From Saxidomus purpurata (Eukaryota; Mollusca; Bivalvia; Venerida; Veneridae), in NCBI GenBank assembly GCA_022818135.1, contig JAFMSR010000015.1, forward strand, positions 16,879,823 to 16,943,822: DNA of 64,000 bases, in the 5' to 3' direction. Both the position numbers and the translations under genes were made by a program. This document shows, piece by piece, positions 9,591 to 47,099 of the stretch. Numbering within the stretch: the stretch's first letter is position 1; each line of letters begins with the position of its first letter. The notes below the pieces were generated by a model. It saw only the letters and a program-made list of their open reading frames with translations. It ran no database searches and was not told the origin of the DNA.

Positions 9591-10200
9591 ATTATACCCC
9601 CACAATACAGCTTTGTCACAGAAGTATGGCAACCATAAGAAAGGAATGGCCACAAGGAAATAGAGTTGAGTTATTAAACAATAACTTGTGTAAATGAGAC
9701 CTTAACCTTAGACCTACTGACCCCAAAGTCGAACTTGACCTGTATTTCATGATGTTACAGTTGTGTACCGAAAATCATTTAAATCGGTCAAGCCTTTCAT
9801 GAGTTATCATCTGGAAACTGTTTTACATTACAGTTCAGAGTCACTGTGACATTGACGTTTGACCTACTGACCCCAAAGTCGAACTTGACCTGTATTTGAT
9901 GATGTTACAGCTGTGTACCGAAAATTATTTAAATCGGTCAAGCCTTTCATGAGTTATCATCCGGAAACTGTTTTACAGTTCAGAGTCACTGTGACCTTGA
10001 CCTTTGACCTACTGATCCCAAAGTTGAACTTGACCTGTATTTCATAAAGCTGCACGTGTGTACCAAAAATTATTTAAAAGGGTAAAGTCGTTCATGGGTT
10101 ATCATCCGGAAACCATGAAAAGCAACAGACAGACCGACAAACCGACAAGCTCACTCCTATATACCCCCCCCCCCCAAACTTCGTTTTGTGGGGGTATAAT
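9591..10200. mobile_element. 610-bp TIR element with three tandem internal monomers
   Basis: The ends are perfect 15-bp inverted repeats (ATTATACCCCCACAA at 9591-9605 and its reverse complement at 10186-10200). Inside, the phrase GACCTACTGACCCCAAAG recurs at about 9711, 9861 and 10006, a period of 145-150 bp, each unit containing ATTTAAATCGGTCAAGCC and a CATCnGGAAACTG segment. A C-run forms part of a terminal hairpin. No protein is encoded; it resembles the molluscan non-autonomous elements with central core repeats. Confidence 0.85.
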
Positions 10201-11944: not shown

Positions 11945-12441
11945 TTACTGCTGTTGATTTTGGATCATGTTAATTTTCGCTTCCAGTCGATTTTCCATAG
12001 CTTTTATCCGAGCATCAAATAATTCCCAAGTAAGAACTGGATTGAACGGTTTGAGCTGCGAGACGTTTAATTCTTCAAGTATGGCAGTAATTGGTGTAAC
12101 AAAACACTCAGTATCGTTTACGACTCCAACAACCATGCCAATGCATCTAAGATCATTTTGCTCATTGTCTTTCATAAAAACGAGGGCTCCAGAATCACCT
12201 GCCCTGCAAAATGGCACATCATTGGCTGTTGATTTGATGTGATATTGCTTGAACAATGTTGTTGTTAACTGATTGGTTAATACATCCATTCTACTATGGA
12301 ATGCAATTTCTTTGACCACGGCGTTATCAAATTGAATGTTTCCATATGTCTGTTCTGTAACAGCCCCGAATTTCTGCACCAGAGTATTACCCGAAGGCAT
12401 GCCTTCCTTTCCCCAGATATACCCATTTCGATAGCTGGAGT
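11945..12441 (-). CDS. Gene 1 exon 9: C-terminal half of serine protease
   Basis: 497 nt to the TAA at 11947-11945. Acceptor CTTTCCTTTAAAG|AC (phase 1). It contains GKEGMPSGNTLVQKFGAVTE, the usual strand pair after the Asp in PA-clan proteases, then CRAGDSGALVF with the nucleophile Ser (12193-12191), then GMVVGVV and a short helical tail (ENRLEAKINMIQNQQQ) that may be coiled coil. All three catalytic residues of the triad are therefore present across exons 8 and 9. Confidence 0.88.
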
Positions 12442-15400
12442 CTTTAAAGGAAAGAAGAATTTAATTTGATTAACGTTTGTTTCGAACTTATTCTTCGTGG
12501 TGAAAGCATAAGGACTAAACTCTTGCTCACAAAAAACATAACATAACAGAATATAACATGGCAACTAAGATATGTTATTTGTTTAAAAAAAAAAGAAATA
12601 CTGGCCAACGGGAAGTGTTAGAAGATTATTTTGAGAGTTTGACAAGATCATTTGAGGGATTTTATCACGTCTGAATATAATCTAAATTGTAAAACGTATC
12701 GAAAAATGAGTGGGAGAAGAGATTCCTTGTACAAACTTTCTTTTAGATAAAAAATAGTAAGCCCCTTTCTGGGTTAGTGTACATGTATTATATCGTATTC
12801 GAAAAACGAGGTGGAAATTAATGTGTTAATTTAAACATAGTGCAAATAGTTTTGACTATTACCCTTTATTGCTTCTGTCCGATGACTATTTCTATGTTTG
12901 GTTTCAATGCCAAACGCAAAATCAAAGTAATTAAGCAATCAGCAGAGCTTAAAATTTCATAATAGAATGTTTTTCACAACGTGTAGAAAACAAAATAGAA
13001 ATTGTAAGAAGTTCTTACAAAGAACTGATTATGGTTTACAGGATATATGTCAAGGACTGGAATGAATATAAGAAGATATGCGTTTTCAATTTTATATAAT
13101 TTTATACGATATTACAAAGTAGTACTTATGTTTTAAACTTACCTGTTATATTTTCTCCGACATCTGGAAACGTTCCCGCAATTGGAGTTCGCCTTTCAAT
13201 TTTAAACAGTGCAAGATCAACACCGGGCTTACCATCAACTCCTTCTTTGTACGTCATCTCAACAAGTGACCCAACCTTTTTTTCAATAGAATAACTAGGC
13301 TGAAATATTAAACAATCTTCCGTTTTTTTAATTTTTCTTTTGGTATCTTCTTTGAGTATATATTTCTCGTAATCGTTCAAAAAAACATGCGCACATGTAA
13401 ACCCACACAACCCGTATACTGGATGTTCAATAAAACCACCAAGTGTACCACTATTTTTCGGTAGGTTACTGGATGTTATACTACAGCCCATGCGTAGGTT
13501 TTCTTGGAACTGCTTAGCTGAACGCCCGCATAGCTGAAATTCACCTTCCCGTACATGGACGGGAATGCCTTCTATTTCTGTTGGAAATGGCTCCTCGTCT
13601 AATGGTATAAAATGCTTTGCATGAACATACAAAATGATGAATGCCCTTTGTGAAAAAGTACCATCTCTCTTTGAACCCGCCGTAATTGCTGACAGATATG
13701 TGTGCTTATTTATTATATCGAAAGCGTGTGTATCAATAATGTCGCTAATTTCTATGGCTTTCTGTATAGGTAATGGACAGTCATTTATGTGGCTCATGTC
13801 CGTGCGTCTGCCTTTCCTCTCATCGGTTTGGTGTAGAACCTTCACTTCAACTTCCCATGTAGGCTGTATGTTAATATTCCGTTTAGCAAATACGACAAAA
13901 ACAATTTTTTTATCATCTTTAAGCTTGTATGCTGGGTAAACATGTACAATATCCTCAGACATATCTTTGATGATGGGACATATTTTGTTGCATTTCTTTA
14001 TCACATCAATTGAAAATCGCCCTTCTCTTGTATATAAATCTTCCAATTCAGCTTTGCCAATAGGAATGAGCTTCGCATCATTCACTAGAAATCAAATAAA
14101 ATGTGCATATTGTATGTACCATGCTAGAAAAAGAGTTACGTTGTATAAATGAACGTCGAACAATTATACTTAGTTACAGTAGTCGGAACGTAACAGTTGT
14201 CAAAATTTGCGTATATCGTGCGTGTAACGTGCGTGCGCTCATCGTGTATTTTTTTTCAATCGTACATCGTGTATCATATCGCATCATTCATCGTGCAACG
14301 TGCACCATATACTATGCACGATATACGATTCCCGGTACACGATGCATGATAGACATATACGGTATATGATACGATGTTTTATTCAGTCCTGAATTGTTTG
14401 ACTTTGCGTGTATAAACAAAGTGCTTACAACACATTGTATTATTTTTCATTCGTCAGTGCAATACGGGTAATCGGAGACAGTTTACACCTGAAAAACGAA
14501 ATTCAATTCTATCTTATCGACGGAAAGGACATAATTTCTCCTCAATATCTAAACTATTGTTGTAACGACATTCTCCTATATGCAGTCGACAAGCTATAAG
14601 GGAATTCATTAGGAACTATAAGAGGACAGGGAACATCAACTACTTTCGAAATGAACACGGTTGGGTATTTTCCCATATTTAATTTTTGATTTTAATACCG
14701 ATCGTTTTAACATGACAGATAGCATGCAATATGAACTGTACACAATCAAACCTTTGCAATTTCATATTATTGCAACAGTACGCTAAACTGAAAGCCATTC
14801 CTGCTAAAACAAATGAAAATAGATGCTTATCTTTTAATTCCATGTCTGCATCGAAACACCATGATATGATATGATGTAACCAAGTTATTTATTGGGTAGA
14901 TAAAGATAATATGACGAGTCAAAGATAGTTTTACAAAATCAGTTAAAGTCCGAGCAAAAAATAATAAAATGATTGGACTGTACCTTCTTGTTTAGGGTTA
15001 TCCTCGTATTCCTTATAAAATTCTATTTTATGACATATATTGTAGAACCAAAGCAGTAGCAAATTGCTATAAGCGTTTAAGGCACAAGGTCTAAATAAAG
15101 CTTGTAACAATAACACTTTTAACAAGTTAAACAAGACAAATTTTGCATTATCAAACACTACAAATACTGGAAAATTCACATAAAATATAACATAGATTTG
15201 TCAAATTATCTAACAAGTTATACTGGGGTCATGTTATCTTAATGCAGAAATGAAAGACTTAGTGCTACAGTGTGTAAACATAGTTTAATATAGTAAGATT
15301 TTCCACAAAATGCTAATATTTTCTTATCTGATTAATAGAACTTAAACAAGATCATAGGGTCTACACTGAACACATAGCTCTATAATTATGGTAAGTTTTT

Positions 15401-18400
15401 ACAACGCGTGGTTCATTTTTTAACTGATGGCAACAATTTCAAGGAATTGGATACATGGTCATCGAAAGAGCATTAGTGTAAAATTATTTTGAAATCGGGT
15501 CTGCAATTAAAACTTATATACGTATTAGGTAAACTGGTTCCATCCCTTGCCGCCATGTTTTTTTTTATCAAAACAATTTGAATGAGTTAGGTAGAGGTTC
15601 ATCCAAGGAACATTTCAAGAATATATTCAAATCAGGATAACTGACACCGCTCCGTGGCGGACATGTTTTTACTTGATCAATATAGAGAAACGTTTTTACC
15701 GAATTACTTTGAAGATGAGAAGCGTTTCTGACTAGAAGATATTATTGATTTCAATTTTTGATTACCATTGTAACCAGATGTATGCATGACTTAAATCAAT
15801 TCGAAACTGATAGGAGTACATGTACCAAAAATAATAATTGGTATCACGTTTAGAAACAATTGGTCCAGCGGTTTCATAGAGAAGTTGTTGACGACACACG
15901 GCGACAATTATAGCTCATCACGAGCAATTTGTGCTCATATAAGCTAAAAGCACTGAAATGGGATTGAAAAAGCTTAACCCGGTCTACGCGTAGTAGTATT
16001 TTGTTAAGTCAGTTACCTTTGACGACATATTCTGATGTTTTTGTCTTTCCATTTAATACGTACACTCCAGTCTTAGCAATATTAAGAGCACATAACTTAC
16101 GCCAAGTCGAAGTTTTCTGTTGTTTCTCTTTCAAAAGATGTTCCCGCTTTTCTTCATATGCCGGTTTCTGAGACTTATTCGCTTCACATTCTTGCTTCCT
16201 CTTCGAAGCTTTCTCTTTAATAAGACATTTAGTTTCAATGCGTGATGCTTCACATTCTTGCCAGACATAATATTGCTGAAGTTTGAAAGAACACACATTT
16301 GTAATTTAAAGCAAGGACACGAACGAATGATAGTCTAGTACGGACATATCAGGCTTCCTGCTGTTTATTCAGAAGGCATTACCTCAAGTAAAAAAAGAAC
16401 AGAAAAAATATCTTGCAACAACCGACCAGAAAGTTGACGGAATTTTCATTTCATCAATATCGACACGGTTGAGAAGAAACACCTGTAACAAACAGAAAAT
16501 AAATAGTATTATTTAACTATGTATGCAAAGTGACTTTAATTTTCGGTTATGTCAGGAATAAGAAAAGACAATTACGGAAGATAATTAACAGCGATGCAAA
16601 TGTTTGAAATATAAATTAAATGCCTATGCAAGCATGATAAATCACTCGGCGAAACTGTAACGCATTTGCATTTGAACACTTTTGTAATATCATATCTAGT
16701 TGAAGCAGATCATTTCAAAGGTATTAAGTGTAAGACTTATAAATTGTTTTAATTACGATCTTTTGAGTCGCAAAACGGCCGGGTACACGGAGTTGATGAA
16801 AAAGTCTCGATGTTAGGACTTGCAAATGTTTCCAGAACAAGGAGAGATATCTGTTTTAAAGTTGGCATACCTTGAATAAATGCAAAAAAAAAAAAATAAA
16901 TAAAAAATACAAATCACTATAAGTTTATAAGCCACGTTTTCCTAATTTCTTATGATTTTTGCATTTTTACGTTTAGTACAAATTTTAATGTATGGTGCCA
17001 GTCAGTGAGGAGGATCATTTAATAATTCACTACGAGAATGGCATTTGGAGACATAATTATGACATGCACCCCTTATTGTAACTTCACTGACTTATATATA
17101 AAGTGTTTCCGCGTACAAGTTATGCTACATTGTCAATCGAGGGAACATAAAAAGATGTTTTCATATGACTAAAATAACGAGTGAAAGAGTTGTGGTTCTT
17201 GCACACTGCACACTACACCACTTCTAGGATCCTCTGGCATTAGTAATTTGCCATGCTTTTAGACAAACATGAAATTACATAATGAATGACGAAAATGCAT
17301 TATTAGTCGTATAATACCATTATTCAATGTTTATCAGGCTCCAGGCAAGGAAAATTGGAAAAGGAAACAATGAATACGAACTCATGGTAGAGTTATCAGT
17401 CTTGTGAGCTGTATTGTTCCTTGAAACCATCTACATATGCTGTTATTCAAGTTTGTAGTCAATCCAAATACCTTTTAAGCTATGTTCCGGACAGAGAGAA
17501 AATGAAACAACAGAACTGACTAAAATTACTCATGATTTTGTCATGGTTCTTGCACACTGCACTTTTCCATTATGTACACGCTACATCCAAGGTTTGAAGT
17601 TAATCACTTGAATAGTTTTTTGACTTCTAACACTCTTTGACAGACAAACATGCAGAAGGAAAGACAAACAACATGCTGATGGAAAAACAGATTTCATTAG
17701 TACATATCGCAAGACTTTATAAATCTTTGTGCATCATCTGTATGCATTTAGGACAGTGAAAAATGAAAATCCCTTTTAAATAAAATTAAAACTACACACT
17801 AGATTTTCCCAATTCTACTGTATTTTGAATAAAACTTAAACCGATGGTTTATTTAACAGCCAGTTAAATTTTCAGATATCCGTGACGGTCATATTCCTAC
17901 AATCACCATCGAGTAAAACTTTTGATGAATATCTAAGTTAAAAAAGCTTGAAGTTAAAAAAGCAGGTTTTTTGAGAGTTGTTTATTTATGATAAAACATT
18001 AATTTTATCTAATTTTATTCCCCAAATTCATTATGTCTAAAGTTTTCTTACCATTGGTCCTAGGTTCCTTAAACCCATGTACTTCTTTTTGGCCTGTTCA
18101 AATTCTTTGCAATACAACTCGTAGCCATTGACTTTGTTATACGAGTCAAATTTCACTTGATGATCTATCCCCGTTAGGACGTCCTCTAAAGCGGATGTGG
18201 ATTTTTCGAGTGAAATTCTTTCGAATATGCTGTACATGGTTTTCTGTAATTTGTTTGTAACTTTTGTTAAATACTCTGACTTTCAATTGCTTTTCTCCAT
18301 AAAACTAAATAAAAATATCGAAAACTTAGCCAAGTCCAAAAAAGAATAGTTTTGTTTGCTAAAATTATCTTATCCTATCTTATCTAATGATAACTAATAG

Positions 18401-21400
18401 AGCCAGATTATAGAATTTGATACCATTAAATAACAGGCACATGTATTGCAATTCTTTGATACTGATAACTTGTTATTAGAATTATAGTTTTATCATGGAA
18501 TCATGGAGAAATTGATGCATTCTACATAATTACATTATTTGTATCATAACTATCATAAGAATCTCTATTACCTGTCATCAGATTTTGAAAGTTGCCAGTG
18601 ATTAAAACAAGTACCTACTTATATGGCATCGGTCAATTATATTTAGCCATTTGCAAAATAACTCATGGCGAATAGTACTAACTTAAAGTTTGATGATACA
18701 AAACCTTGAGTTTTAACTGTCATTTTTTAACTAAAACGCATAATCTTATCACTGTTAAATATTGTTTAACTTTATTCGTAATATAAAATGAAAATGTAAA
18801 TCTAAAATGTAAATCTAAATAATGGCATTAATATTTATCGCTTCGATTTCATCTATGTATGGTAATACTGCTAATTATGAAAATTCTATAAATTATCAGT
18901 CATTGCATGCCGAAAAGTCAAACGAGATATAAAACTTAACTGATTACTGGTATCCTACATGTTAACCGGACGTTCAATCATCCGGACAATTTCGATTTGC
19001 ACGTAATTAAACAGTTATCCTTTGATCCAACGTGTAATGAAGATACCCAGATCTTGCAGACGCTTTCCGTGTCTGTGACAGTGTAGTCAACTTATCACTT
19101 AGGTGAACAGCATTAATGAATTTGATATATATGTACCGCACTTGCCTTATATTTTGATTGCAGACGGCCATGGTCACGTGGGGGCTTAATATATCAATGC
19201 AAATGCGCACCTGCGCAAATGGTTAGCGATGTTAGCATTCCGTTTCAACATTAGTTTCAATAGACTTTTAACAGTTGGGAATGGAGAAGGCTTTGCGAAT
19301 CATAAAGAAAATACTAAAATCTTGAAAAAGTAGATAGTTTTCGTTAAATTGATACTGAAAGCATTAAATTACACATTTAGTACACGTAGACCTAAATCAA
19401 TGAACCATGACGGACCTCGGTTCAGGATTTATGCTATTAATAGTTACCAGTTGCTTTTCCCGAGAATTCCACTTGTTTACTTTGAGCCTTACAGAGCATA
19501 ATTTAGGTATGAGACGCCTAAATACATTTCCATAGACTTACATTATAAGGGTTTCTTCCGGTGCGACTACCCAAAATCTCACCGACTGCTGAAATGAACT
19601 TTATTTTGTAGAATCATCCTAGTCCCACATAAAAATAACAAAATTTATACATGTGATCCAATACTTTATGCCAGTAATTTGGAGCTCAATGACACCACCC
19701 CCAATTCTGTGGCAGTTTTAGTGGTCACCGACCAAATATGTCAGTATTTTCAAATACCAAATATTTTGATTATAATTTATATCCAGATTTTTCTCTTCAT
19801 ATTTCATTTGTGATCTATCATGCAGCGATTATTTCAAACTAATTTTTCTTGTATGCATCCACTTAGTTTCAGCCAATCAGCAATCAAACACATAGTGTAG
19901 GTCCGCATGTTCCCTAGACAAAATAACCTTTTTCCGGTTTTCACCGATTTAGGCGTCTCATACCTAAAGACTGAAACGATTGCTTTTGTACGCACTTAGA
20001 ACTCTTTCAAATAATAAAATAATAATTGCTGAACCAAAGTATAGCTTTGATTTAATCTGCATAGCATCACGATGCAGAATATACCTCCATATTGATGACC
20101 AGGTCGAGACGATTTCGTGTGCTGCTGCTGAGCTTTTAAATAATTTGTCAAATTGCTTCAATATCAGTTGTCATATCTGTAGTATTTTCTTTTCAGAGTC
20201 GAAAATGTGAGTGGACAGGGAGCAGAGTGTCTATTAAAAATATATGTGTTTATTTGGTTGATACATCATATACTCTTCTTGCAATGGCATGTTATGTTAC
20301 CCCACCCCTTCCAAAAAATGAAATTTTGAAGAAATTTTGCCTTATTTATCACAAAAGAGTGTTCTAAAAAGCAGGATAGTATCAAAATTTACATCAAAAC
20401 GTACAATAGAGTTAAGGCTGTACATACGCACACCGTACAAACACGCTTGTTCAGTAAAAAACCCAAATTAAACATCTAGATGGACGTTCAGGGTGCCCAA
20501 AATTAAGAGTAATCTGCGTAGTATTTGAATTTCTAACACATGTACCATGAATTGTAAAGAACCAAATGCTTCTTAAGTGCCACTTTTTCATTAAAATATG
20601 AATTGTCACGGCTATGCATGAAATTTCAATTGAAATAGACCATAACTGACGCGATGCATCCCTCTGAGGCCAAAAAAACGTATTTTTGTACACCGTTTTA
20701 GAGTAATATTCGTATTTCTGAGACCGAAATTGCAAATGCGACAAGAAATGATGCATATTTAACAAAATTCGTTTTTAATGTAATGAAAAACAACAAATTA
20801 GCTACAAAAACTGAGCAGATTTTCTCAAAAATTGGGTTTTAAGGCATTTTTGTAATTAAAGGGAGGTAATTCAAAATCTATATTGCCCTTCCGTATGCGT
20901 TCCGGGACATGTTGTCGCATTTTGTGATAAGAATTACGTCGATTTTTGTGAAATTACAATGCTAGCACTGTTTTCACGCAATTTCATGGCGACTAGATCT
21001 ATATCACACATTTTAATTACAACAGTATACTTGTTTGATATGTTTTCAGCTCTAGAATCATAAGGTGACGAAAATCATTTACTAGAACAGTAGCCATTTA
21101 GGTGATATTTACCCGTCTAGTGATTTTGAGATTCAGTTACAGGTCTAAAAAACACAATTTCATCAATAAAATCACAGTACGTACTAAAATCCGAGCATAA
21201 ACAGCTCGGGAATATACTTTGTAAATTATCATTTGTGAATTATATACCACATTTCACACTTCTATTGACAACATGTTATCTGCCCTTGCACATTTCTTTT
21301 CAGCATTTTCTCCACTGCTGGTCCCGTATATTGAAACTTTGTAACCATACCTGCATTCTAGACTAAAAAATCTTCCAGTAATAAATTCAGATTTGCGCTG

Positions 21401-24400
21401 ACATCTCTACACTCCGTATTTATGTGTGCACAACAAAGTCATACAGTTATAATCCCCTATATCTGACCTAGGGGTACATTTTGAACCTTTATTTCATAAA
21501 AAAATATCAGAAAAGCTGATTTGTTTCCTTCCAGACCTCCATTCAATGTATCTGTTACCAAATTAGCTATTTTGAATACAAAACAATGTCTAAAATGAAC
21601 TCGGGGACACACAGAAACATCGTTTTCTGTGCTATATTTAGGTATGAGACGCCTAAATACATTTCCATAGACTTACATTATAAGGGCTTCTTCCGGTGCG
21701 ACTACCCAAAATCTCACCGACTGCTGAAATGAACTTTATTTTGTAGAATCATCCTAGTCCCACATAAAAATAACAAAATTTATACATGTGATCCAATACT
21801 TTATGCCAGTAATTTGGAGCTCAATGACACCACCCCCAATTCTGTGGCAGTTTTAGTGGTCACCGACCAAATATGTCAGTATTTTCAAATACCAAATATT
21901 TTGATTATAATTTATATCCAGATTTTTCTCTTCATATTTCATTTGTGATCTATCATGCAGCGATTATTTCAAACTAATTTTTCTTGTATGCATCCACTTA
22001 GTTTCAGCCAATCAGCAATCAAACACATAGTGTAGGTCCGCATGTTCCCTAGACAAAATAACCTTTTTCCGGTTTTCACAGATTTAGGCGTCTCATACCA
22101 TAATGTGAAACATCAACCAGAAAGAAAAAAATCTGATGAAATAACATACTTTTTACACAAATAAACAATTGTCCGGATGATTGAACGGACGTTGCATATT
22201 TCGGGGACGTTTCATTGGTTATTGTATTACTCGAATTGAACAAGAAAACATACTTTGTGACCATCTCAAAGTATAAGGATGCGTACAGCTGAGACCGAAG
22301 TTCATTGTGTGAAAATTTCGTGTTTCTATCTGCATTATTGGCAGAATTATTTACAAAAAGGTCCCGTTTCTGTCCGATTAATTGAAAGAAACCAGTACCT
22401 CAAACTTTTCTTATTCCATACATCCAACTATCGAGATCCATTTCTTCTGTACGTCTTTAATAGTAGCAAGTCGGTTTTTCTTTTCTAATTCATAAAGTGT
22501 TTCGTCTGTGTCATGTGGTAATGGCCAATTCATCTTCATCTCATTGTCAAACACCTCTAAAGCTAACTCTCTCGATCTTTCATTTTTCTCTTTAAAGATT
22601 TCGGGCCAAATTTTTGAAATTCCATGTAAATCGTCACCATTTACAGCTGCAACTGTCTTGCATACATTTCTTGCCAGCTCTACAACGAAACATAGCTTAA
22701 AGATATTTAAGTTGATATAACTAATGCTGTTTTCCAAGAAATAAAACGTTCATTTTTAGAATTAAAAGTCAATAAAACTGTAGATGTATTTACTGAAATC
22801 CTTTCTATATTATATATTTCAAAAGGGTTCATGTTAACAATTTATTTGAGATAACATATAAAAGAGTTTGCTTTCTTTACACTGTGTTCGACAAAAAGTA
22901 TTTGGTTCAATGCATTCAAAGTTTTACACATATAAATGATCATTTCATTATGCTGTAAGTAAAGGTCCACAGTAAAATTATGTACAACTATGTGTATAAC
23001 TACATTTTGAAACTGTTTATATGGGTTTCATTTTCGCATCTAATATGTTATAAATGAGGTCATAATAGTTTAAAGTACATTTGTAGTTTATATTGTAATG
23101 AGAGACGTAAACAATAGTTTTATTGTTACAAGCATTTGGCACATTGGATGAACGACCACCTGACATTGTCTCGGAATTGAACACATACAATTAGATTTTT
23201 TCGACAAAAGTTTAACAACGGAGGTAAGTTAAAGTGGTTTGTATTTGTGGGCTTACGATACTTTACAAATCCATTGTATTCTCGAGGTGTAAAATAAAGG
23301 TTAGCATGTTAAATATACAAAAAAAAATGATGACAAACATTTATTTTATGCTTTTCTGCGGTTTATCGAAATATAACAGTGGATGATATTCTGATAAACT
23401 CACTGTCCATGCAGTGAAACTTATCAAAATTTGTTATCCTGATTAACGTCAAAACGTATACCGAGCGTAATCAATGCCGGAAACCATATGACGATGACGA
23501 TGTTAAAATGATGCCATGTTTGCGATGCTTTCTGGTGATGTTTCGACATTTTGATAAAATAAACTCCGGAAAAGTATAGTTTGAGACATAAAATAAACAG
23601 AACAATTGTTGGTATAGATGTCATATCACGATAATTTCACTCGTGAACACCAAAAGTAGGTATTTAAACTCGTGGCTGCGCCACTCGTGAAATTTCACTT
23701 TTGGTGCCCTATCGTTGAAATTATAACGTGATCTTACATCGAAACCAACAATTATCCTCTATGTATTCACTCGAAAATTTCGACCGTTAGTAACGTTTAT
23801 TTCGCAAATGTGCTTATTATAAATAATGTGAGCCGAGCGCAAATATAACTCAAATCAGTGCACTGGGTATTGTGTATTTAGCTTGTTGGCGAACTGGCTT
23901 ATATTTGATAAGCTATTCTCAGTGGCAAACAGTTTCATAATGAATAATGTAACAGACAAAACTACTCATGTACGCACCTTTTCCCGAAAGATGCACGTTT
24001 GAATTGACATATAGGGGCTTTGCACTGTCGTTTAAAAACGTTTGTAATCTATCACAGCCATTGATAAACTCTTCAGCTAATTCCATGTCATGTGTATCCA
24101 GCAAATCAGTCACTCTTCTAGCCTTTGGTCTCACTAGTAGAACGGACTTAATCTCGCGAAACACTTGAAATATTATTTCGCCTTCTTTGCCGTCTCTCAA
24201 TAATTCACACAATTGGTGGTCAGGAGACTCTGGTTGATCTAGATCGAAATCTCGTAGTATCGAGACCAATATTGGTTTCGACAACACCTCATTTTGAATT
24301 CTATATCTGCTGACCAGTTTACTTGTACAGCTGTTTGGTATAGGATAAAGTGAAAACTCATGAACAATTATTTTCAAGACTTTGCTAAAAATCCAAGTAA

Positions 24401-27400
24401 AAGCCATACAGGACCGCCAAAATTACTACATATCGCATATTATTACAAGGATAACATATTAATATGAGAAACAATAAATGAGCAGTCTGTCATGGAAATA
24501 CGGACCTAATTTCCTTTTAGGCCTATAATATGGGAAAAGAGTCAACAAATAATACTTTCTGATGACCATGCTCTGTGAGTAATCACTGTTGATGAAGGAT
24601 CAAACAAGAGGGTCATGAAGGACCTATATCAATCATTCGAGTATTATTGCACTTTAAATAGAAAAAAGTAAGTGAGGAGTTCATATTGAAAGTCAGTCAG
24701 ACGAATTATGAAAATAAATTTGCAAAACTAAACTTATAGTCTCTGGCTTGAAAAAAAAACTGCGTCAAAGGTCAAGGTCAACCAAGGTCAAAGTTAAACT
24801 CTGCATGCAACACTGTTAATACGGTTAATATTTCATTGCATTGTCCTTAAAAACAGGATCGTAGTTCAAAAGGTCAAAGTCGGCCAATGTCAAAGTTAAC
24901 ATGCTGCGGCCACTGGAGTCTTTTGTAATTGTGCTTATTGGGTCCACCATCCTCTAAAGAGGCTATAATCGGTACGACCCAAAGACCACTGGAGTCGCGG
25001 CTGTACCTCCTCATATAACACCAGTACTGTTTTTTTTTCCAGGAAGCGAGAGTGACTTGATAAGCTTCAAGGTTACTTCACAATCAAGTTGAAATGAATT
25101 AGTATAAATTAAACTAAATAACATGAAAGGAAATATCTAACAACGCACATTTAATAAATATAAAATATAGCATCTTAATAGAGAAAATACTTAATTTGAT
25201 TCACTGCACTACATAAAATAGAAGAATCCTCACATAATCTAGTTACGTTTTGAATGAAATGAAACATTTTTTTCTGTAGATAGAACTTGTGACAAAGTTA
25301 TGAAACAAGATGTGTATGATTTGCAGCTTTACAAACAATAGTCTAAGCGTAAACATTAGTATTGTTGTCTTCCGTTCACGCATAAATGGAACTCGGTCCA
25401 TCGTTTGCTATTTATATAGGCAATTTTTAATTTTTGCAAACTAAATTATCACAGAAAGGATACATTAAGTTATGTTTCATCTTATAATCATAACAATAAC
25501 CTCTGCTGTTGTACATGATTACATCACATATCTGGCAGACTATCACAAAAAGCTGCTCATAACTCTCATAATCGCATTCCTGAAACACATATAAATTCAT
25601 ACTTACTTAGTAATGTAATATTTTGTACTCGTTAATGTATATCCATGTGAAGGGTGGTCAATATGAAATAAATACAATATAGTTTCAATTTAGATATGTA
25701 GTATTAAGTCGCTTCCTTTGTAGTTCATTGATAATGTAGCTCTAGAAAGTTTAAAAGATTGTCTTACAAAGAAACGTTAACAAGAATAAGCATGAAGCAC
25801 ATAAAAAAAGAAATTAAAACATCTGAAAGTTAAAGCAGTAATTCTTGTTCTTTAAAATTTATTAAAGTTAACAAAGTAAAACATCTAATCGAAGTATTAC
25901 AAAACATAATTCTAAGAAAATGTGCACTTGAAATAATTATATATCATTAATATGAACAAACATGCCATAATGGTCTGATATCACTCGTATGAATTCAATG
26001 GAATATCGGGCTATGATCAACCCTACTGAATTATTATTTTGACATTCAAAATACAACTTATTACAATATGACATATAGATTCACTTGAGGAAAAGTAGAA
26101 AATTACTTACATATTCTAGTACCTCTCACTCGCCTAATTTAAAACAAAGTGAAACTGTTTGTTTCTACTTTACAGACGCGTTGTATTTACAACCACGTGT
26201 GAAGCGATATCAGTAATAGCCACCACACGAATCAATATGTTTTGGACTATATTGATATAGCATCACATAAAGCACATCCTAGAAACGTGTATCTTGGTCG
26301 GATCAAAAGTTTCAGATAGAGAACAGACTATTACATATCTTGACAAAAAATGCAATAACATTGTCATGCGTGCAGGGGTTTTCAAATCATATGGCACAAA
26401 TGCTCTGCATATAAAGACGACGCGTTGAGGACCACGTCCGTACCTCAAATGTCAAGGTCAGACTTGGAGTTTAAGGCCCTTCCCTCCGCTTTTTCATATC
26501 CGGACAGTAACTTTACCTTGCGTGGAGGAATTTTGAAATAAATATAGCATAAATGATTAGCAAATGAAGATGACATGTTGCGTGAAAGACCCATGTCCCT
26601 TCCTTAATCGGCAAGGCCACAATTTAAGTTAAGATGTAATGGACCTTGTATGAACAGAATGCACACATTATATCTCTTAAGCAATGCTTTTAAAACGACT
26701 TGGCACAAATATTTAGCACGTTGCGTTTAAGTCTCGCGTCCCGACTTTAAAGGTCAGTCTCAAACTGACAGGCTTAAAGGTTATCGAATCATGTATATAT
26801 GTACAAATTCGTGTCCGGACTGTAATTATGCCATGCATTGACGGGATGTCAAGCAACTGGGCACACATGTTCAACACATAAAAACAACTTGTCGCAGGCA
26901 AGTACCGCTTCCCTCGCTCGAAAGTCAAGGTCATACATAGAAAGAGTTTACATCTCATGGATTCGTGTATACACGATGGCTCTGTCATGCATTGAAGGAT
27001 TTTAAAATTACATGGCACAAATGCTGAACACAAGAAAATAATATGACCATGCGTGAGTCCGGTAAAAACTGTCTGTATGCACATACTCATGTAACGATTG
27101 TAACTCTTTCATGCACTGAACGATTTCAAAGAACGGATATGTGATTCTATCTTCTACATTGAAGGACTTTAAATAAGTTTGCACAAATGTTTAAAACATG
27201 GCGATCAAATTTCATGCCCAAGTGCCTGGTTCACACCTTGAAGATAAAGCCCACAGACTGTGTGACACCGATTCAGAGCCAGTAACAGCTCTTTTATGGC
27301 ATGTTGAGATATTGAGGAACAGGTAAGGTATAACACATGTCAAAAGATGATTGCAAGCAAAAGTATAACTAGAGGGTTGTATTTACACAAAAACATATGT

Positions 27401-30400
27401 CTCCCCCCACGCATATTACCACTCTCTGTTGTGGGGAATCAAGGCCAGAACTAGCAACAATGACATTCACCCACCCCGAAAAAAACTTTATTTGCTTCAC
27501 ATAATTTAAAAACTAAAAATAAATATCAACAGTGACCTTGACCACGTTCCCCGGAAATTTGTATTTGCTATTTTCGCTTTAAAATTTTCACACTAAAATA
27601 TATATTTATAGTAGCAGTGACCTTGACCCAACCCCCAAAAAACAACACTTTTATTGCTTCATCGTGTTTTATTGCTTCATATGGTGAACATCTAAAGTGG
27701 GTCATTCTAAAAACCTTCAAGGGGTTCAAGAGATATGGAGCGGACACGAAATATAGTCATATGAACTATGATCTATGTTTGTGAACTTGACCTTGAGCCG
27801 TTACAGACGGACGGACGGACGTACTCACCAGACGGACTTTGTGAAGTTATCCCTTTGATCTTTCTTTGATCTTTTTTTAACCCCACAATATAATTATTTA
27901 ACCCTACAATACCATTTTTAACCCCATAATGACGGAATGAACTGAAACAACCTCACAATGCTACGTTGTACTCAAACCCTACAGACGGACGAACGGATGG
28001 ACAGACAGGCAGACGTATTTGGCAAAAACAATATATCTCCCCATAGACTTGATTACATGTACCAACTGAAGGTCATACATGATTATTGTTTGCAAACAAT
28101 TGAAAATCAAATTATTTTATGTATGTATTAAGTAAAATGAGCATTGCCATTTTCGAAAGGTAGGTGGATAGAATATTTGATAAAGAATGTTCTGGTTAGT
28201 CCTTTCTCATCTGTGTTCTATCCTTTTCAAGTTATGAGTGTCCTTTGCCTATGAGCGAATGCAAAACTTTATGATATATATTATTTTTTTATGTTTAATA
28301 TGAAGATAACTTGTGTTGATTTGAGGTTCGCATTTTTCGAATTGGTTTCTAGCACCACACGATAGATGACATTTGTTGGAAAAGTTATAGCAAGGTTTTG
28401 ACCAATATGAGTTCAAGCTTTCACACACTGAACTACAAAAACGTATTCATTTATTGCATGTACCATTACATATTATCATAATAGGTCGCTCATATATGAC
28501 TGTGCTATTATGTATTTTTAATGCCAGAAATAATTGAGCAATTGTGTTTGTAATTGCCTCAAGTTTAAACTAAAGAAACCTAGTTAGATATGCGTGATGC
28601 AAATATTGAAATACAAGGATATCACAAATTACGTGTACGGAAATAAGAGTTTGATTTTAAAACTAATGTTCACTTAAAACTATCAATTACTTAACACTTG
28701 TATATGTTATATAACTGGTATACTTCGTCTCAGCGTTGAGACAGCCTTAGCAAAGTACAATGGTGACATTTGTATGTTATATGAAGTTCACAACAGTCCT
28801 CGTACATAACAAGTGCTCGTTGTCCTCATAATTAAAATTTAGTTTGCAGCTTACTTTTGTTGAGTACTCCGGGCTTTCAACATCAATGTACATGATAGCC
28901 CTTTTAATGGCAGGCTTGAATTGAATATAAATCCAAATTCCTTTGGTCACTTGATCTAAAGACGGACTAGTCGGGAAGACGTCTACAAGATAAAAATGTT
29001 GACAAACATAAACGGAAGCGTAAAATAAAGCGGTATTGAGCACAGAAATTGACTAGAACCATTACTATCATTTACATAATGGAATATAAACAGCTTATGA
29101 CTAATCATAAATATATGGATAGAGCTGTGGAACGCATTTGCTGCCTCATTAAGGTCAAAATACTTTACTATGTTAATAAACCGTAATAAAAGTCATTGAC
29201 TGTAAAAATCGCTATTTGGCATTAACATATCATAATGTTGTAGGGTTAACGCACGTTTTTTTTCGTGTTATAACATCTGCAGAATCCCGAGGGATGGTTG
29301 GTGCCCGAGCCAACATATTCCAAGGGTTTTTGCAGGTGTTATAACACGAAAAAAGTTCGTCAACGCTATTCTAGCATAAATAGAATAAAAATCATAAAAA
29401 ATGAAACGCTCATACTGGTACGACGTTCAACAATGCGCGGGACAACGTCCGTGTTGTTTACGTCATATTTATGACGTCACCAGCGGTTTTTAAGCCCGGC
29501 ACTGTTGACGCCGTACATGATGTAAGACTTGGGAGACAGGTCCATTGTTTACAATGGCCCTGTACTGCGCACAAATGAAAACGGGCTATAACGGCGCGTG
29601 AATCTCCTGTTAAAACACCGGCAAAATGGGAAAAATAGCAGATTTTATGCTAGAATATATGCTAACATCGTTAAGAAGTACATAATGTAGAGAGGTTAGG
29701 TCAGAATGTCCTTGTGCAATGTACAAGCATCTTATGACGGGTAAGAGCATAATTATGGTACGTGTAAACGCCGTTATGTATAAGTTAGTGTTTATTAAGT
29801 CAAATTTCAATTTACTCCAACTTACTTAGTGTTTACCCTCATTTGACCTTTTGCATAGCCACCGACATGTTTTAAGGCACGGACCTATATGTATATAGGT
29901 CTGTGATTGTGGGCGGAGCTTAAGTGCTTTCTATTTAGAGCGCACTCTTAACGAATTATATAATAAGTGATTTCAGTAGTCTAAATGAAAAAGAAAGACG
30001 TTTATTTGAAATTCTGATTTGATTGGTGGGCAAATGGGTCAAACACTAAGTAGCTATAACACGCGAACGTACGAGAATTAAACGCCTACAAAAAAGAATT
30101 AAACGTGTACGTGTAAAATGCGTACACACGAATCTTTTATTAGCGGTATATTTATATTTACAGTGTATTTAGCAGTTAATCAGTGCCAAGTTTATTAACA
30201 TTAGGGCCTGTAAAATGTTTGTGTTTCCAATAAGAACAGGGGTTTATTGCCAGCGATGTGAGACTACTGTAGATATTACTGTACTAAGATGGAAGTTCGA
30301 GCACTCATACTAATATGTTTACGCATAAATCAAAAACACCAAAGAAGTGGACAATTCTTGTTAAAGGTTTATAATTGGAATTTGGCCATGTAATAGATTT

Positions 30401-33400: not shown

Positions 33401-36400
33401 GTCAGGTGTTCACTTTGTAAGTGTGTTACACACATTAATTGATAACAAATTTTGCAAAACCACAAATACACATGTTTACTTAAAACGTAACTTTGGAAAT
33501 GCTTTCTGCAATTATGAGCACACTTTGTTGTACAGTATTACACTTAGTGTTGCGAAGTTCGTTAAAGAAAGCTTTGGAAAATGTAAATGTGCTAATAAAA
33601 TTAAACCAATAAGTATGTTACTCTTGTGTGTGCCATAAAGCGAGAACTTTTTTATCCGGAGATAAAGCGAAGCCAGCCGCGGATACAGGGTTCTAGGGCA
33701 TTTCTCTCCATGAGTTGTCATCTCTGGCTTTACCTGTGCAGCTAGAAGTCTCTTTGACCGTCATTTTAAAGCACACATTCGTTTAAGGCTATGAATATAC
33801 CATGCAGTCATTTCTTGTTTACAATGGTATTAGTCATATACTTGTACGATTGCGATTACTGATGTCGATAAACTACTTAGTTTCATTACATTGTATTACG
33901 TTATATATGGGTTGGGTTCTATGAAATTGTTGTACATTTGTGTATAGTTATTGAGCGTAAACCGTTTTTTTATTTTAGTAATAGTGACCTTAATCCTAGT
34001 GACCCCATCTGCAATGCAAAGCTTCCTCTCTATGCAAGCTACATACACACCAAGTTTCATAAAAATTGGTCACTCCTTACTTAAGTTATTGAGCGGAAAC
34101 CAAATGTTTGACGATCACTGAAAAAGGCTACTACAACAACGCCAGCTACCAAAAAATTATTGTGTAAGATGTAAGAACAAAGTTATTTAAACCAGTTATA
34201 TATGATACCATCCTGTGGGAATAACATGTATCAACATGTGATTACATCAAATTAAATGATTTGTATGAATAAAACTCTAAATTATGATCTAGTTAATTGG
34301 CTTATCTATATAAGTTTGACAGATCCAAATTTATTTAGTAGCTGTACTTATTCTTATATCAAAACGAACTTTGAAATATACATATAGTGAGAAAATTCAG
34401 AGCAAACTTTAGAAAATGGCGGAAAACGTGTTTTTACTAGGTCAAGCGCATTCATACCTGGGAAAGTCTTTTTCTGTACGCTCGGAAATTATATAAATAT
34501 GCCGTTAGATCAAGGGTTAATTGTTACCTTCACTCAGTTCTTTGTTTCCATCCGCAATGACTCGCAGTTTTGAAGTTATTGAAGGTTGAATCTGGTCAGG
34601 TGCAAGCCTTCACGAATGGAAACCGAAAGTGCCCCGACCATTTATCAAAATTTCCATCCAAATCGATAGATGTTGAGGCCAGGGATCGATTGTTTTACGA
34701 GAAAATATATAGGAAGTATTTACCTGCACTTCACTACGATGAGTGTTTTCATATCCCAATATCTTCGTTTTTTTCATACTCCAATATCTTCGTTTAAACA
34801 CATTTTGGAGACAAACTTTATACTTTAACACTTTTAAAAGACAAACTTGTCACGCGCGCTTCACTTAGTATACTCTAAGAAAGAAATGACCTTTTCAAAT
34901 GAATGGAATGAACTGAATTGCTTTTAACACCGCATTTATAATTTACAGACCAATATACATGTACGTGTATATAGGTCCGTGTTTAATTGTATGTTATTCT
35001 CCTTCGAGCACACATACACCAGTGTTTGCTCTACATTTCTACCTAATTGTATTCATAAAATCAGTCAACCCTTCCTCAAAGGGAAGAGTGCAAGAATGAT
35101 TATAGTTTGACATAATGTCTTGTCCAATAAAATTTGTGGATCGTACTAAAGATTTGAAGAAAAATATTGCATATGATGCAAGTAAACCGAATTATACTAA
35201 TATTATCTGATACTTGTGTAAAAGGCACATGACGTCAGCCCTTGCGATTTTTGTGGCTGGACTTATTTTTATAAGCATCAGCGCTTGAGTAATTCAAAAT
35301 GAGCTTTTTGAATGACATAGTTCGTTTCACGACACTGTGAAAGTAGGAAGTAAACTTTGATATACAAACACCGTCGCAGTGTCGTGATATAAAGTGATGT
35401 AAGCATAAAATGTATTTCCAAACAAGCATGTTTTGGTAAAAAAATATCCAAGAAGTGAATAGCTTTCACGTAATTTGCACATACATCTACAGTATTTTAG
35501 AGTTTTGTGGTTGATGCTGATATAATGCTGAAACAGAAAATCAACGCACTAATGGTCTAAACAGTTAGTCTCCGAAATGTGTTTAAACGAAGATATTGGA
35601 GTATGAAAACACGCATGACTGCAGTGTAGTGCAGGTAAACATTTCCTATATGTTTTCTCGTAAGGCCTCAACATCTATCGATCTTGGTAAAAATTTTGAT
35701 AAATGGCCGGAGCATTTTCGGTTTCTATTCGTGAAAGCTTCCGTCAGACCAGATTCAACCTTCAATAACTTCAAAACTGCGAGTCATTGCGGATGTAAAC
35801 AAAGAACCGAGTGAAGTTAACATATAACCTTTCACTTTAATAGTGTAAAGAAAACGAGTTACCCTGGAATGAATGCGCTGCTTGACCTAGTTGAAATATA
35901 CAGTTTCCACCATTTTCTAAAGTTTGCATTCACTATACACCTACCCCCTGTATATAAAACTATAAGAATGATTTAATACTTGTGATCAATGAGTAATGAT
36001 AGAAGACAGTCTAATTTCTGACTGTTTAGGACCTGATAATATTACTGAATATGGAAACCTTGATAAAATGTTTATCTGTCTGTAGCAAGCACTTTTATTC
36101 AGTCCTTTTCCTAACTGCTATAGACAGGTAAGACAATAAATAAATTGAGAACACGTCAGTAACGTCTCGTTACGTCACGCCAATCTTGTATTTTAAGTCA
36201 CCGTTTCAAATGTTGTCCAACTTCAAGAAAGTTTCAGTGGCACAAAAAGTAAGATGGTGACCCCCGTTTTTATCTCATACAATGTAGAAATGCTTTAAAT
36301 TGGTTTAAGATTCCATAGCGCTTTTTGAAAACAATCCCTCGGACCCTTTTTCGAAATTTTCGCTAAATGCGTCAACTTTGCAATTATTTTGAAAATTGTC

Positions 36401-37687
36401 GCCCCTTCAGGGATCGTTCTGTACTTTTTCATATTTATGGCAAAATTATTAGATATTTTCAGATGGACAAATGATTCGACATTGTATTCATGAAAATAAG
36501 ATCGTTTCGTTATCTACATAGACAGAGATATATAAAAAAACACGAAAATTGACGAAAATACACATCCCCGCTAGGTGGTGTTTTTAACTCAGTTTCCACT
36601 TCAATATCACTTCACCGTATGTTTTCTACAAATTTTAACGTCAGTAAGTCACGGGGTTGTAATGCAAAATATCTTAAATCTGCGCTGCCTTTAAAAAAAG
36701 GACTCGATTTCTTGGGGGAAACCGCGAGCTACGAGCGTACCTTAAGATGCTAGTTCAAGCCTGAGTACATAAAAAAATTTATGTGTATGTAAATATCTAC
36801 ATTTGTGATTCAGTGTAATTCAATTGAGGCTTATTAAAAGTTCTTTTAAGAGTTGATTTACTTATGACTTTCCGGCGAATTAATTCAAAAGATATGTCTT
36901 CACAATACATTTAAAGTCCTCTATTTGTTTGATATTCTTTAGTGTACGTATGTACATACATGTAACATTCTCGGAGATGCACGTTAAATTCTCGTACGTA
37001 CGCGTTTAATTCTCGTATGTGAAGTACGATAAATAAACTTGGCTCTGTTCGTTACAGTCAGAACGCTTATGTAGTGGTGGCCTTGATTAGAACATAAATG
37101 CATTTCTAGAATCAGTTTTTAAGAAGCTCAAACATTTTACAAATATCTTCCCCTACGGCGAGGGATACGAATAAAATATCAATTGTTTGAAGATGCTTTT
37201 ACAGAAGTAGTGTCTACAGTCTCGGATGTAAGTGAACTAGTAATATGAGTTAATTCTAAATAAAAAGATAACTTCATAGGAACGAAACTGGACATAAAAG
37301 AATCTGACTTTTAGAAACTGAAAGAATGGAAGACATTAAAAGTTTGAGTTTTGGTTTGAAAAGAATGTATAAAAAAGTAAAAACATGAATAGAAAGTTTT
37401 AGTAATGTAGATTACCAGACTTTTCATTAGGTTTGGTAAAAGTATCTATTGTTGTCTTTCCTAAAGAACCAATAATTGTTTAATCACAAGCACTTACTTT
37501 TCCCAACTAATTTATTCAAAAGAGAGGATTTGCCGGTACGACAAGGACCGACTATAGCCATTGGAGTGATTCCGTAGTCCTCAGGGATGCTCTCAATGAT
37601 CTGTATACCATTGTCTGCGAGTTGCAATTTTACACTATTTCCCACTGTTGTGCGGTATATCAAAACCTCAGCTCTGTCCTGGTCCAT
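11945..37687 (-). CDS. GBP-like large GTPase fused to a trypsin-like serine protease (gene 1, nine exons)
   Basis: Assembled coding exons: 37687-37498, 28982-28855, 25579-25464, 24330-23978, 22679-22399, 18243-18052, 16275-16017, 14084-13143 and 12441-11945. All junctions are GT-AG and phases agree (1,0,2,1,0,0,1,1); the sum is 2958 nt, or 985 residues plus stop. Residues 1-263 form a GBP-type GTPase domain: P-loop GPCRTGKS at 47-54, TKGIW at 76-80, ILRD at 169-172. Residues 264-420 are the GBP helical domain and 421-506 a charged coiled coil. From 507 follow a region of unknown fold and a PA-clan protease with His739, Asp796 and Ser904. There is no signal peptide, so it should act in the cytosol; GBPs hydrolyse GTP and self-assemble on membranes in cell-autonomous defence. 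Odd points: an in-frame TAA at codon 352 (22413-22411) and DVES instead of DxxG at 97-100. It may be a live gene using another donor in exon 5, a polymorphic null, a young pseudogene, or two transcription units. The TAA means this reading is conceptual. Confidence 0.75.
13143..14084 (-). CDS. Gene 1 exon 8: unknown domain plus N-terminal half of serine protease
   Basis: A 942-nt exon. Acceptor TTTGATTTCTAG|TG (phase 1) joins to exon 7; donor ATAACAG|GTAAGT (phase 1). The first 200 or so residues have no recognised fold. They include an ILYVHAKHFIP strand and the phrase PFPTEIEGIPVHVREGEF, which may be a separate module or a pro-region. Then GTLGGFIE and YGLCGFTCAHVF introduce the catalytic His (13389-13387), and KPGVDLALFKI carries the catalytic Asp (13218-13216). 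The order and spacing are those of trypsin-like PA-clan peptidases. There is no signal peptide in front, arguing for an intracellular protease. Confidence 0.85.
16017..16275 (-). CDS. Gene 1 exon 7: coiled coil / linker
   Basis: 259 nt; acceptor TTTCAAACTTCAG|CAA (phase 0), donor GTCAAAG|GTAACT (phase 1). Rich in Lys, Glu and Gln, it is a probable long helix, corresponding to the C-terminal helices of GBPs. The last third (around VYVLNGKTKTSEY) is not coiled coil and leads to the protease half. It aligns at its start with gene 2 exon 7 (YYVWQ / MVVWN) and ends in the same phase. Confidence 0.8.
16940..17720. repeat. Dispersed repeat with GGTTCTTGCACACTGCAC units, in gene 1 intron 6
   Basis: The unit GTTnTGGTTCTTGCACACTGCAC occurs at about 17190 and again at about 17540. 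Related phrases (GTTATGGTTCTTGCGCAATG) occur at 49315 in gene 2 intron 7. It is a tandem-unit non-autonomous element; ends not resolved. Confidence 0.5.
18052..18243 (-). CDS. Gene 1 exon 6: GBP helical domain, second part
   Basis: 192 nt, 64 codons, phase 0 at both ends, identical in length to gene 2 exon 6. Acceptor ATTACAG|AAA; donor CCAATG|GTAAGA. The sequence NGYELYCKEFEQAKKKYMGL followed by RNLGP corresponds to human GBP1 GGYRLFVQKLQDLKKKYYEE and to EYKRLRNLGPQ in gene 2. Confidence 0.88.
19502..19968. mobile_element. 467-bp MITE, copy A
   Basis: Ends are inverted repeats of about 22 bp (TTTAGGTATGAGACGCC...). Non-coding. Nearly identical in sequence and orientation to 21637-22099; by eye only isolated substitutions differ. 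Confidence 0.85.
21637..22099. mobile_element. 467-bp MITE, copy B
   Basis: Direct-orientation near-identical copy of 19502-19968. The last few bases of the right inverted repeat diverge (CATACCA instead of CATACCTAAA), so the right end is slightly truncated or altered. Confidence 0.85.
22399..22679 (-). CDS. Gene 1 exon 5: start of GBP helical domain, with in-frame stop
   Basis: 281 nt. The acceptor TTTCGTTGTAG|AG is phase 1 and matches gene 2 residue for residue at the junction. The sequence (KTVAAVNGDDL..., WPEIF, ...ALEVFDNEMK) is the first helical stretch of the GBP_C domain. Reading to the donor homologous to gene 2 (TTTGAG|GTACTG, phase 0) crosses a TAA at 22413-22411, aligned with or beside a TTA Leu codon in gene 2. 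An earlier phase-0 donor, AAAGAC|GTACAG at about 22455, would avoid the stop by dropping about 19 codons; which is used cannot be decided from sequence. Confidence 0.75.
23600..23765. repeat. Imperfect palindrome in gene 1 intron 4
   Basis: The left arm (CACTCGTGAACACCAAAAGT) pairs with the right arm (ACTTTTGGTGCC...), and ACTCGTGGCTGCGCCACTCGTG lies at the centre. Arms are interrupted. It resembles the hairpin-rich repeats at 47100-47235 and 51370-51680. Confidence 0.55.
23978..24330 (-). CDS. Gene 1 exon 4: guanine-specificity motif and end of GTPase domain
   Basis: 353 nt; acceptor CCAAACAG|CTG (phase 2), donor GGAAAAG|GTGCGT (phase 1). It carries PILVSILRDFDLD, the GBP form of G4 (TLRDF in human GBP1, where the Asp recognises guanine). 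Further on, LLVRPKARR and an acidic helix match the GBP FDRPVHRRKL region. The start puts seven codons before RYR, exactly as in gene 2, which is why this acceptor was preferred to two others nearby. Confidence 0.88.
25464..25579 (-). CDS. Gene 1 exon 3: GTPase core helix
   Basis: A 116-nt exon found by searching for the piece missing between G3 and G4. Acceptor TATGTGTTTCAG|GAA (phase 0), donor TTAAT|GTATCC (phase 2). The translation contains FVIVCQICDVIMYNSRG, aligned with IVCQHCDVLLYNIRG of gene 2 exon 3 and with the LLSSTFVYNSIGTI helix/strand of vertebrate GBPs. It restores the reading frame between exons 2 and 4. Confidence 0.85.
26380..27360. repeat. Tandem-monomer repeat (period about 155-165 bp) in gene 1 intron 2
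   Basis: The phrase TGGCACAAATG recurs at about 26393, 26701, 26860 (GGGCACACATG), 27014 and 27181, each followed by AAAGnnnACnTG and a CAAGGTCA element. Open frames over it are repeat artefacts. Confidence 0.6.
27385..28050. repeat. GTGACCTTGACC-type non-autonomous repeat in gene 1 intron 2
   Basis: Begins near ACATATGTCTCCCCCC and ends near ACAATATATCTCCCC. It contains GTGACCTTGACC twice and ACGGACGGACGGAC-type runs at 27808 and 27985. Non-coding. Confidence 0.5.
28855..28982 (-). CDS. Gene 1 exon 2: switch regions (TKGIW, DVES)
   Basis: 128 nt, the same length as gene 2 exon 2. Acceptor TTTTTATCTTGTAG|AC (phase 1), donor ACAAAA|GTAAGC (phase 0). It encodes the GBP G2 segment VTKGIW (the conserved Thr contacts magnesium in the family) and beta-strand YIDVES. 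GBPs have DTEG at G3; here the glycine is serine, whereas the paralogue keeps DVEG. Confidence 0.88.
29225..29365. repeat. Palindromic repeat in gene 1 intron 1
   Basis: TTTTTTCGTGTTATAACA at the left is matched by TGTTATAACACGAAAAAA at the right, around a core with CCGAGGGATGG and GCCCGAGCCAAC. It can form a long hairpin. Confidence 0.65.
31740..31930 (-). mobile_element. tRNA-derived SINE nested in the 2.06-kb element
   Basis: On the minus strand it starts at about 31928 with GCCGAGGCGCAGTGGTAGCG (a box A-like tRNA segment) and about 50 nt on has GGTTTCGATCC (box B). A tail then runs to TTCATCCGGAATGAGTCTCG. This is the architecture of a tRNA-derived SINE with an internal pol III promoter; the tRNA cloverleaf is not intact enough for a true tRNA gene. 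Confidence 0.75.
32485..33067 (+). CDS. Unrecognised ORF(s) of the 2.06-kb DNA element
   Basis: Two plus-strand segments. The first (about 32485-32742) is hydrophilic and charged (EVENIKQAVKRLVQRS, then ESESDQIGEEQRETRD). The second (32932-33067) is basic, then ends in a serine/acidic tail (GKSSSSDDE) and a stop. A donor GATC|GTGAGT at about 32606 could connect them, but the join is unproven. They may be the remains of a protein of the host transposon; no transposase motif is visible. Confidence 0.35.
33945..34150. repeat. Dispersed repeat copy related to 46780-47060
   Basis: Shares TTTAGTAATAG, CCTAGTGACCC, CTTCCTCTCTA and AATTGGTCACTCC with 46930-47060, in the same order, and TTATTGAGCGGAAACC with that copy's left part. 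Confidence 0.65.
34382..35944. repeat. 1.56-kb inverted (foldback) repeat in gene 1 intron 1
   Basis: The left arm (about 34382-34820) and right arm (about 35560-35944) are inverted copies. The best part, around GCAATGACTCGCAGTTTTGA (34541-34600 and 35746-35806), has essentially one mismatch in nearly 60 bases; other parts have small gaps. The spacer is about 740 bp and non-coding, with a smaller palindrome near 35330-35395. A foldback transposon or an inverted duplication. Confidence 0.75.
37498..37687 (-). CDS. Gene 1 exon 1: GTPase N-terminus with P-loop
   Basis: ATG at 37687-37685; 63 codons plus one base. The sequence ends with AIVGPCRTGKSSLLNKLVGK, the G1 nucleotide-binding loop of GBPs (human GBP1 has a closely similar GLYRTGKSYLMNKLAGK). 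The donor is GGGAAAA|GTAAGT, phase 1. The start is chosen because it matches the start region of gene 2 (IPEDYGI preceding the P-loop in both). Just upstream the sequence CAG|GTAAGA precedes ATG: it could serve as a weak acceptor (AACAG) for a 5' UTR intron, and also looks like a perfect donor. Confidence 0.9.
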
Positions 37688-42140: not shown

Positions 42141-42142
42141 GA

Positions 42143-42375
42143 AGAGGTGGCGTGGTGGTCAAGTGGTTAACGCTCTGGACTACCAATCCAGACGTCCTTG
42201 GTTCGATTCTCGGCCGAGGCACTAATAATTTCAGAAACGCTTTAAAGTGTTCCCTAACCATTTAGAGATGAACTGGTTAGCAACCCAGAGGTACCTCGGG
42301 TACGTACAATAATCAAGTATCCGTAAAAGATCTAGGGCCTGGTACCCGGGTTCTGCATCTGTCTCTCCTTCCTTA
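42143..42375 (+). mobile_element. tRNA-derived SINE
   Basis: The head has GTGGTCAAGTGGTTAACGC (box A-like), a CTGGA/TCCAG anticodon-type stem and GGTTCGATTC (box B). Stem pairing is too poor for a tRNA gene. A tRNA-unrelated body follows with ACTGGTTAGCAACCCAG and a conserved-looking CCTGGTACCCGGGTTC. Confidence 0.75.
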
Positions 42376-47060: not shown

Positions 47061-47099
47061 CACAAATCAGCACGTACTTAAGAAAGAATATGTATCAGT

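Follow-up and report, generated by a model that had tools for sequence, protein, structure and literature searches.

We give a probability of about 0.5 to the reading that a nine-exon gene on the minus strand of Saxidomus purpurata DNA encodes a diverged GBP running in frame into a NAL1/S64-like protease, which would be steered by its sensor part and switched on by clustering (the window is the whole stretch of 64,000 nucleotides analysed, in which all positions are counted). The coding parts of this gene, its intact catalytic residues and the phase match between exons 7 and 8 are all observed, as is the placement of related modules in bivalves C-terminal to varied immune-type domains. GBP exons lie directly ahead of the protease module and would be spliced to it in frame, so that a protease steered by a GTPase is the likely product of the gene. 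Such a GBP-protease would be a new GBP architecture, probable but unproven, and the full-length protein is in doubt through a stop codon in one of the GTPase exons. The clearer finding is a swappable protease module in bivalves, of which the GBP would be one more partner.

An independent rebuild of the gene recovered nine minus-strand exons with GT-AG at every border and a 975-aa model (985 aa in the earlier note). GBP, GBP_C and Peptidase_S64 all pass their Pfam cut-offs in this one model, which bears out the proposal of a GBP and a PA-clan protease in a single reading frame. Exon 1 (37498..37687) holds the start codon and the GBP P-loop GPCRTGKSS (residues 47-55) and ends in the donor AAA/GTAAGT with a score of 7.7, donor scores here being computed from textbook donor frequencies and not from those of this species. 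The GBP G domain continues through exon 2 (28855..28982), with VTKGIW and the G3 motif, exon 3 (25464..25579), and exon 4 (23978..24330), with the RD motif LRDF and the end of the domain. Exons 5 (22429..22679, with an uncertain 3' end) and 6 (18052..18243) encode the helical region, and exon 7 (16017..16275) the helical/coiled-coil region. Exon 8 (13143..14084) encodes the N-terminal part of the protease module with the catalytic His (13389-13387) and Asp (13218-13216), and exon 9 (11945..12441) the GDSG motif with the catalytic Ser (12193-12191), the C-terminal tail and the stop. A candidate alternative last exon lies after exon 6, at about 16492-16395. Rfam gave no match.

The N-terminal part is, by its sequence, a diverged GBP. 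Pfam GBP (PF02263) scores 42.7 bits against a cut-off of 21.1 over residues 21-148, and GBP_C (PF02841) scores 25.1 bits against 24.3, with its best stretch at residues 357-465. Human GBP1 structures align over residues 26-403 (6k2d, E 3.6e-16) and 26-465 (6k1z, E 4.4e-15). The P-loop with its Arg and the RD motif, both of which have functional roles in GBPs, can be read from the model and the alignment. The protein thus shares with human GBP1 (6k2d, 6k1z, 1dg3) and vertebrate GBPs the P-loop GxxRTGKS, a VTKGIW-type switch, LRDF and the helical domain as far as residue 465, but its helical part seems shorter by eye and its C-terminus is a protease, whereas known GBPs end in helices with or without a CaaX box. 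The G3 motif, DxEG, is altered to DVES (residues 97-100), a change of Gly to Ser that the earlier note does not mention; the tandem paralogue described below and the Ruditapes GBP P0013 both have DVEG. GTP-driven assembly may be impaired by this Ser. Compared with the paralogue, exons 1-4 differ at fractions of 0.43, 0.31 and 0.61 of first, second and third codon positions (251 codons), as expected of constrained coding sequence, the third-position excess speaking for history and not for present function.

A second GBP gene, absent from the earlier note, lies in tandem upstream on the same strand (60578-49666), with seven recognised exons and an intact G3 motif. Its exon phases are those of the target gene, exons 2 and 6 are equal in length (128 and 192 nt), and exon 4 starts after the same phase-2 border in both. 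This shared structure backs target exons 1-4, 6 and 7 and the acceptor of exon 5, including exon 3 with its weak donor (0.0 vs 3.1 in the paralogue) and exon 6 with its pyrimidine-poor acceptor (0.35). Exon 7 of the paralogue likewise ends in phase 1, with a weak donor (score 1.3), which suggests that a phase-1 intron following exon 7 is probably ancestral. An exon 8 of the paralogue was looked for and not found. Searches of the window with the bivalve relatives as queries (P0001-P0012, P0013-P0040) found no protease downstream of the paralogue and no second copy of the protease, and three relatives used at relaxed settings found none in 37701-51870. Elsewhere in the window, open frames at 62604-63733 (minus strand) resemble by eye a Penelope-type reverse transcriptase with a GIY-YIG endonuclease, and an exon at 53-619 (minus strand) resembles an SLC22-type membrane transporter. 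Tandem arrays of about 145-bp units occupy 9698-10113 and 58835-59492, the latter inside intron 1 of the paralogue.

The comparison with the paralogue also locates the weak join of the model, between exons 5 and 6. Where exon 5 of the paralogue ends in GCIALLLDQFE/GT, the target reads GCME-TAA-EKFE/GT, with the in-frame TAA (22413-22411, minus strand) immediately upstream of donor 22399 (score 4.2), the position common to both genes. The model therefore needs a non-conserved splice site here, and the earlier description of nine GT-AG exons with matching phases stands with that reservation. We found seven open joins of exons 5 and 6, all on donors other than 22399, among them 22422 (score 4.5, with acceptor 18260), 22453 (0.3) and 22429 (-2.1), the last being the donor used in the 975-aa model. 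The acceptors of these alternatives are pyrimidine-poor (0.24-0.41), 18260 included, and with sites of this quality an open join, taken alone, is no evidence. Exons 1-4 and 6-9 are open, which counts against long decay. Intron 5 also contains a MITE-like pair of 459-bp copies (19506-19964 and 21641-22099), which differ by 2 mismatches and have perfect 18-bp inverted ends (GGTATGAGACGCCTAAAT); the doubtful splice lies some 300 bases away.

By comparison, the join that carries the GBP into the protease (16017/14084), singled out previously for checking, holds up well. Its donor, AAG/GTAACT, scores 7.8, a value reached by 1.26% of the 3896 GTs on the strand (top 1.3%), and its acceptor is pyrimidine-rich (0.71) to a degree found at 8.9% of AGs. 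Its donor ranks first among the 29 open joins that link the end of exon 7 with the start of exon 8, and its acceptor is the most pyrimidine-rich among the 12 of these that were listed. The phases of the two exons match, in keeping with the phase-1 end of exon 7 in the paralogue, and exon 8 begins close to the onset of similarity to the protease family. In its own frame exon 8 has a stop just upstream of the acceptor and its first Met at residue 42 of the exon. If the donor of exon 7 is left unused, a stop follows two codons later, and a GBP product terminating after exon 7 is accordingly possible.

The protease module contains AH, GVD and GDSG in that order, placing His729, Asp786 and Ser894 of the model as the catalytic residues, as had been claimed for a PA-clan serine protease. 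Across 13 aligned modules AH and GDSG are invariant (13/13), and the Asp position holds Asp in nine, the target included, and Glu in four (P0005, P0007, P0010, P0011), members that may be less active or differently regulated. Pfam Peptidase_S64, the family of yeast Ssy5, scores 25.8 bits in the target against a cut-off of 23.6 (best stretch residues 884-936); none of the 30 relatives reaches this cut-off, the best being P0009 at 18.9. Nal1_C stays below its cut-off of 26.1 bits, with 13.6 in the target and 24.7 in the best relative (P0032). Nine of ten PDB matches are NARROW LEAF 1 (best E 0.002) and the tenth is at chance level. The plant protein (7y77, 8hat) aligns with the target through the Ser (GDSG) block and weakly through the His block, the target being very diverged from it. 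In maize, ZmNAL1a is a stand-alone protease and is reported to break down a TOPLESS-like corepressor (PMC12915138).

An ordinary digestive trypsin was considered and rejected, because Pfam Trypsin (PF00089) is absent from the target at E up to 1, NCBIfam has no match for the target module, P0001, P0035 or P0040, and the PDB relatives are NAL1; one relative, P0010, has Pfam Trypsin below cut-off. The earlier label of a trypsin-like protease is thus right as to an active-looking PA-clan enzyme, but what is present is a NAL1/S64-like plug-in module of bivalves and not a one-off trypsin capture. PADLOC matched 53-55 aa of the target module to cyclases (0.0014, 0.011), weak matches that we judged to be chance, and returned none for P0001, P0010, P0012 or P0040.

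Searches with the protease part revealed a bivalve family. A databank search found 12 proteins (Ruditapes, Mercenaria, Mya, Dreissena, Sinanodonta), and a profile search restricted to the 7995 candidates with most words in common found 26, adding 18 to the first set, oysters among them. All 23 of the 30 relatives with an organism name are bivalves. The modules of the 12 first-search relatives are 30-49% identical to the target module, and the family layout, a C-terminal module of about 480 aa behind a variable N-terminus, fits the target. Pfam scans of all 30 relatives placed another domain above cut-off in six: CARD_2 in P0001 (Ruditapes), DUF4559 in P0003 and P0005, nSTAND3 in P0008, ubiquitin in P0010, and CARD plus Death ahead of part of the module in P0036. 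We did not count as partners an 'LRR-like' region in P0007, for which Pfam has no match, or an 'NHL' region in P0012, at 19.6 bits against 20.

Partner swapping of the module in bivalves is strongly suggested by these sequences. In the clam proteins P0005 and P0007 the modules are identical at 80% of 549 aa and the sequences ahead of them have no significant similarity, and P0002 and P0003 are 68% identical in the module, with DUF4559 in P0003 alone. In a tree of 28 rows, which left out P0036, P0038 and P0040 (fewer than 200 aligned positions or no match), the target falls in a nine-row clade with P0001, P0024, P0026 and P0031 (Ruditapes), P0025 (Mercenaria), P0027, P0029 and P0030, with support of 99/98. 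Within this clade Ruditapes P0001 (604 aa), whose module is 49% identical to that of the target, has a CARD where the target has the GBP. Deposited gene models may be chimaeric, which leaves swapping short of proof. In the RAIDD-like Mercenaria protein P0036 (LOC128545989), CARD and Death sit directly on the Ser half, which shares 61% identity with exon 9, and the exon 8 part that bears His and Asp is absent from the protein as deposited.

Outside the target, no GBP joined to this protease was found among the databank proteins recovered. None of the 30 protease relatives has a GBP domain by Pfam, and none of the 10 proteins found by a databank search with the GBP part has a protease among its listed Pfam domains. 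Within the bivalves that the databank covers, this leans towards the outcome that the earlier note itself had named as telling against the fusion. The nearest of the 10, Ruditapes philippinarum P0013 (LOC132754992), is a 570-aa GBP with 40% identity over 86% of the target GBP part; its full sequence has no protease and closes with a coiled-coil-like segment and a tail rich in Gly and Ser. The other nine are vertebrate or carry no species name. Among the matches listed, the titles and abstract openings of open-access papers name no GBP-protease fusion and do not name the NAL1/S64-like protease family in animals. Fusions of GBP with TRADD-N in marine invertebrates are already in print (PMC8195603, in excerpt). 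They likewise use the GBP GTPase as a partner in lineage-specific, swappable immune architectures, but TRADD-N is an adaptor domain and not a protease, and the NAL1/S64-like module is not named in that excerpt.

Several other readings of the locus have to be weighed. Two neighbouring genes, of which one is a decaying or short-product GBP gene finishing with exon 5 or 7 and the other a protease gene driven independently from a promoter of its own (and with an unrecognised first exon or a start at the exon 8 Met), would account for the TAA in exon 5 and the altered G3 motif, and precedents for a lone module exist in relatives without a recognised N-terminal domain (P0002, P0004, P0006) and in deposited models that start inside the module (P0024, P0025). 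Intron 7 also contains AATAAA at 14893 and 14383, weak evidence at 33.6% GC. Against this, exons 6 and 7 beyond the stop are still open and GBP-like (GBP_C, 357-465), and exon 7 retains a strong phase-1 donor that fits exon 8. A search of introns 6-7 for a separate first exon of the protease, in which coding starts alone were considered, found just two ATG frames in 18051-14090 that could lead into exon 8 from a donor scoring at least 4, with leaders of 7 and 2 aa on one shared donor. We regard two genes as rather unlikely.

The stop codon may instead belong to the reference copy only: exon 5 would there carry a nonsense allele, or a base error, while the gene is functional in the species and full-length protein is made from other copies alone; this overlaps with the favoured reading. 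TAA apart, all nine exons are open and have GT-AG borders, and paralogue-like sequence flanks the TAA on both sides (GC[IM] before it, [DE][QK]FE/GT after it), but the segment is 6 nt shorter than that of the paralogue. This explanation is a tentative one that falls somewhat short of even odds. Translation from the Met that forms the third codon of exon 6, in a frame open to exon 9, would give the protease no more of the GBP than its helical and coiled-coil part and exclude the GTPase; exons 1-4 appear constrained, and such a product is very improbable.

Under the favoured reading, a GTPase-steered protease, the coiled-coil end of the GBP would run in frame into the NAL1/S64-like serine protease, and one transcript would cover both parts, via a non-conserved exon 5/6 splice or in individuals without the stop. 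The phase-1 intron that follows exon 7 may have been the entry point of the protease module. The GBP part would bind nucleotide or membrane, and GBP clustering would bring protease units together and activate them, putatively in cell-autonomous defence. In human cells GBPs polymerise on bacteria (PMC12091997, in excerpt). That one and the same enzyme follows CARD, Death, STAND, ubiquitin and perhaps GBP domains suggests activation by clustering, and CARD, Death, nSTAND3 and ubiquitin in relatives make an intracellular immune-type setting more likely. The earlier interpretation gains from these relatives, and loses by the altered G3 motif, the stop in exon 5 and the lack of a second fusion. In the excerpt of PMC7430831, each of the three GBP rows of Manila clam goes down in response to LPS, PGN or poly(I:C); these are other genes than the target and give no test of it, and a fall is not expected of an induced defence gene. 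A wider scheme, in which a NAL1/S64-type effector of bivalves was exon-shuffled among death-fold, STAND, ubiquitin and GBP sensors, and the clam GBP version would form a proteolytic coat on intracellular microbes with assembly as the protease switch, is speculative and, in our estimate, unlikely.

Known animal immune proteases are mostly caspases, brought to their sensors by separate adaptors. If true, a serine protease within GBP, CARD, Death and STAND proteins would link sensing to proteolysis in a second way, by covalent wiring, and would put a NAL1-type enzyme in an animal defence setting. With the GBP version one could also ask whether an enzyme attached to a GBP is driven by GBP assembly. 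Even with the target gene split in two, a family with interchangeable N-termini would offer concrete targets in farmed clams.
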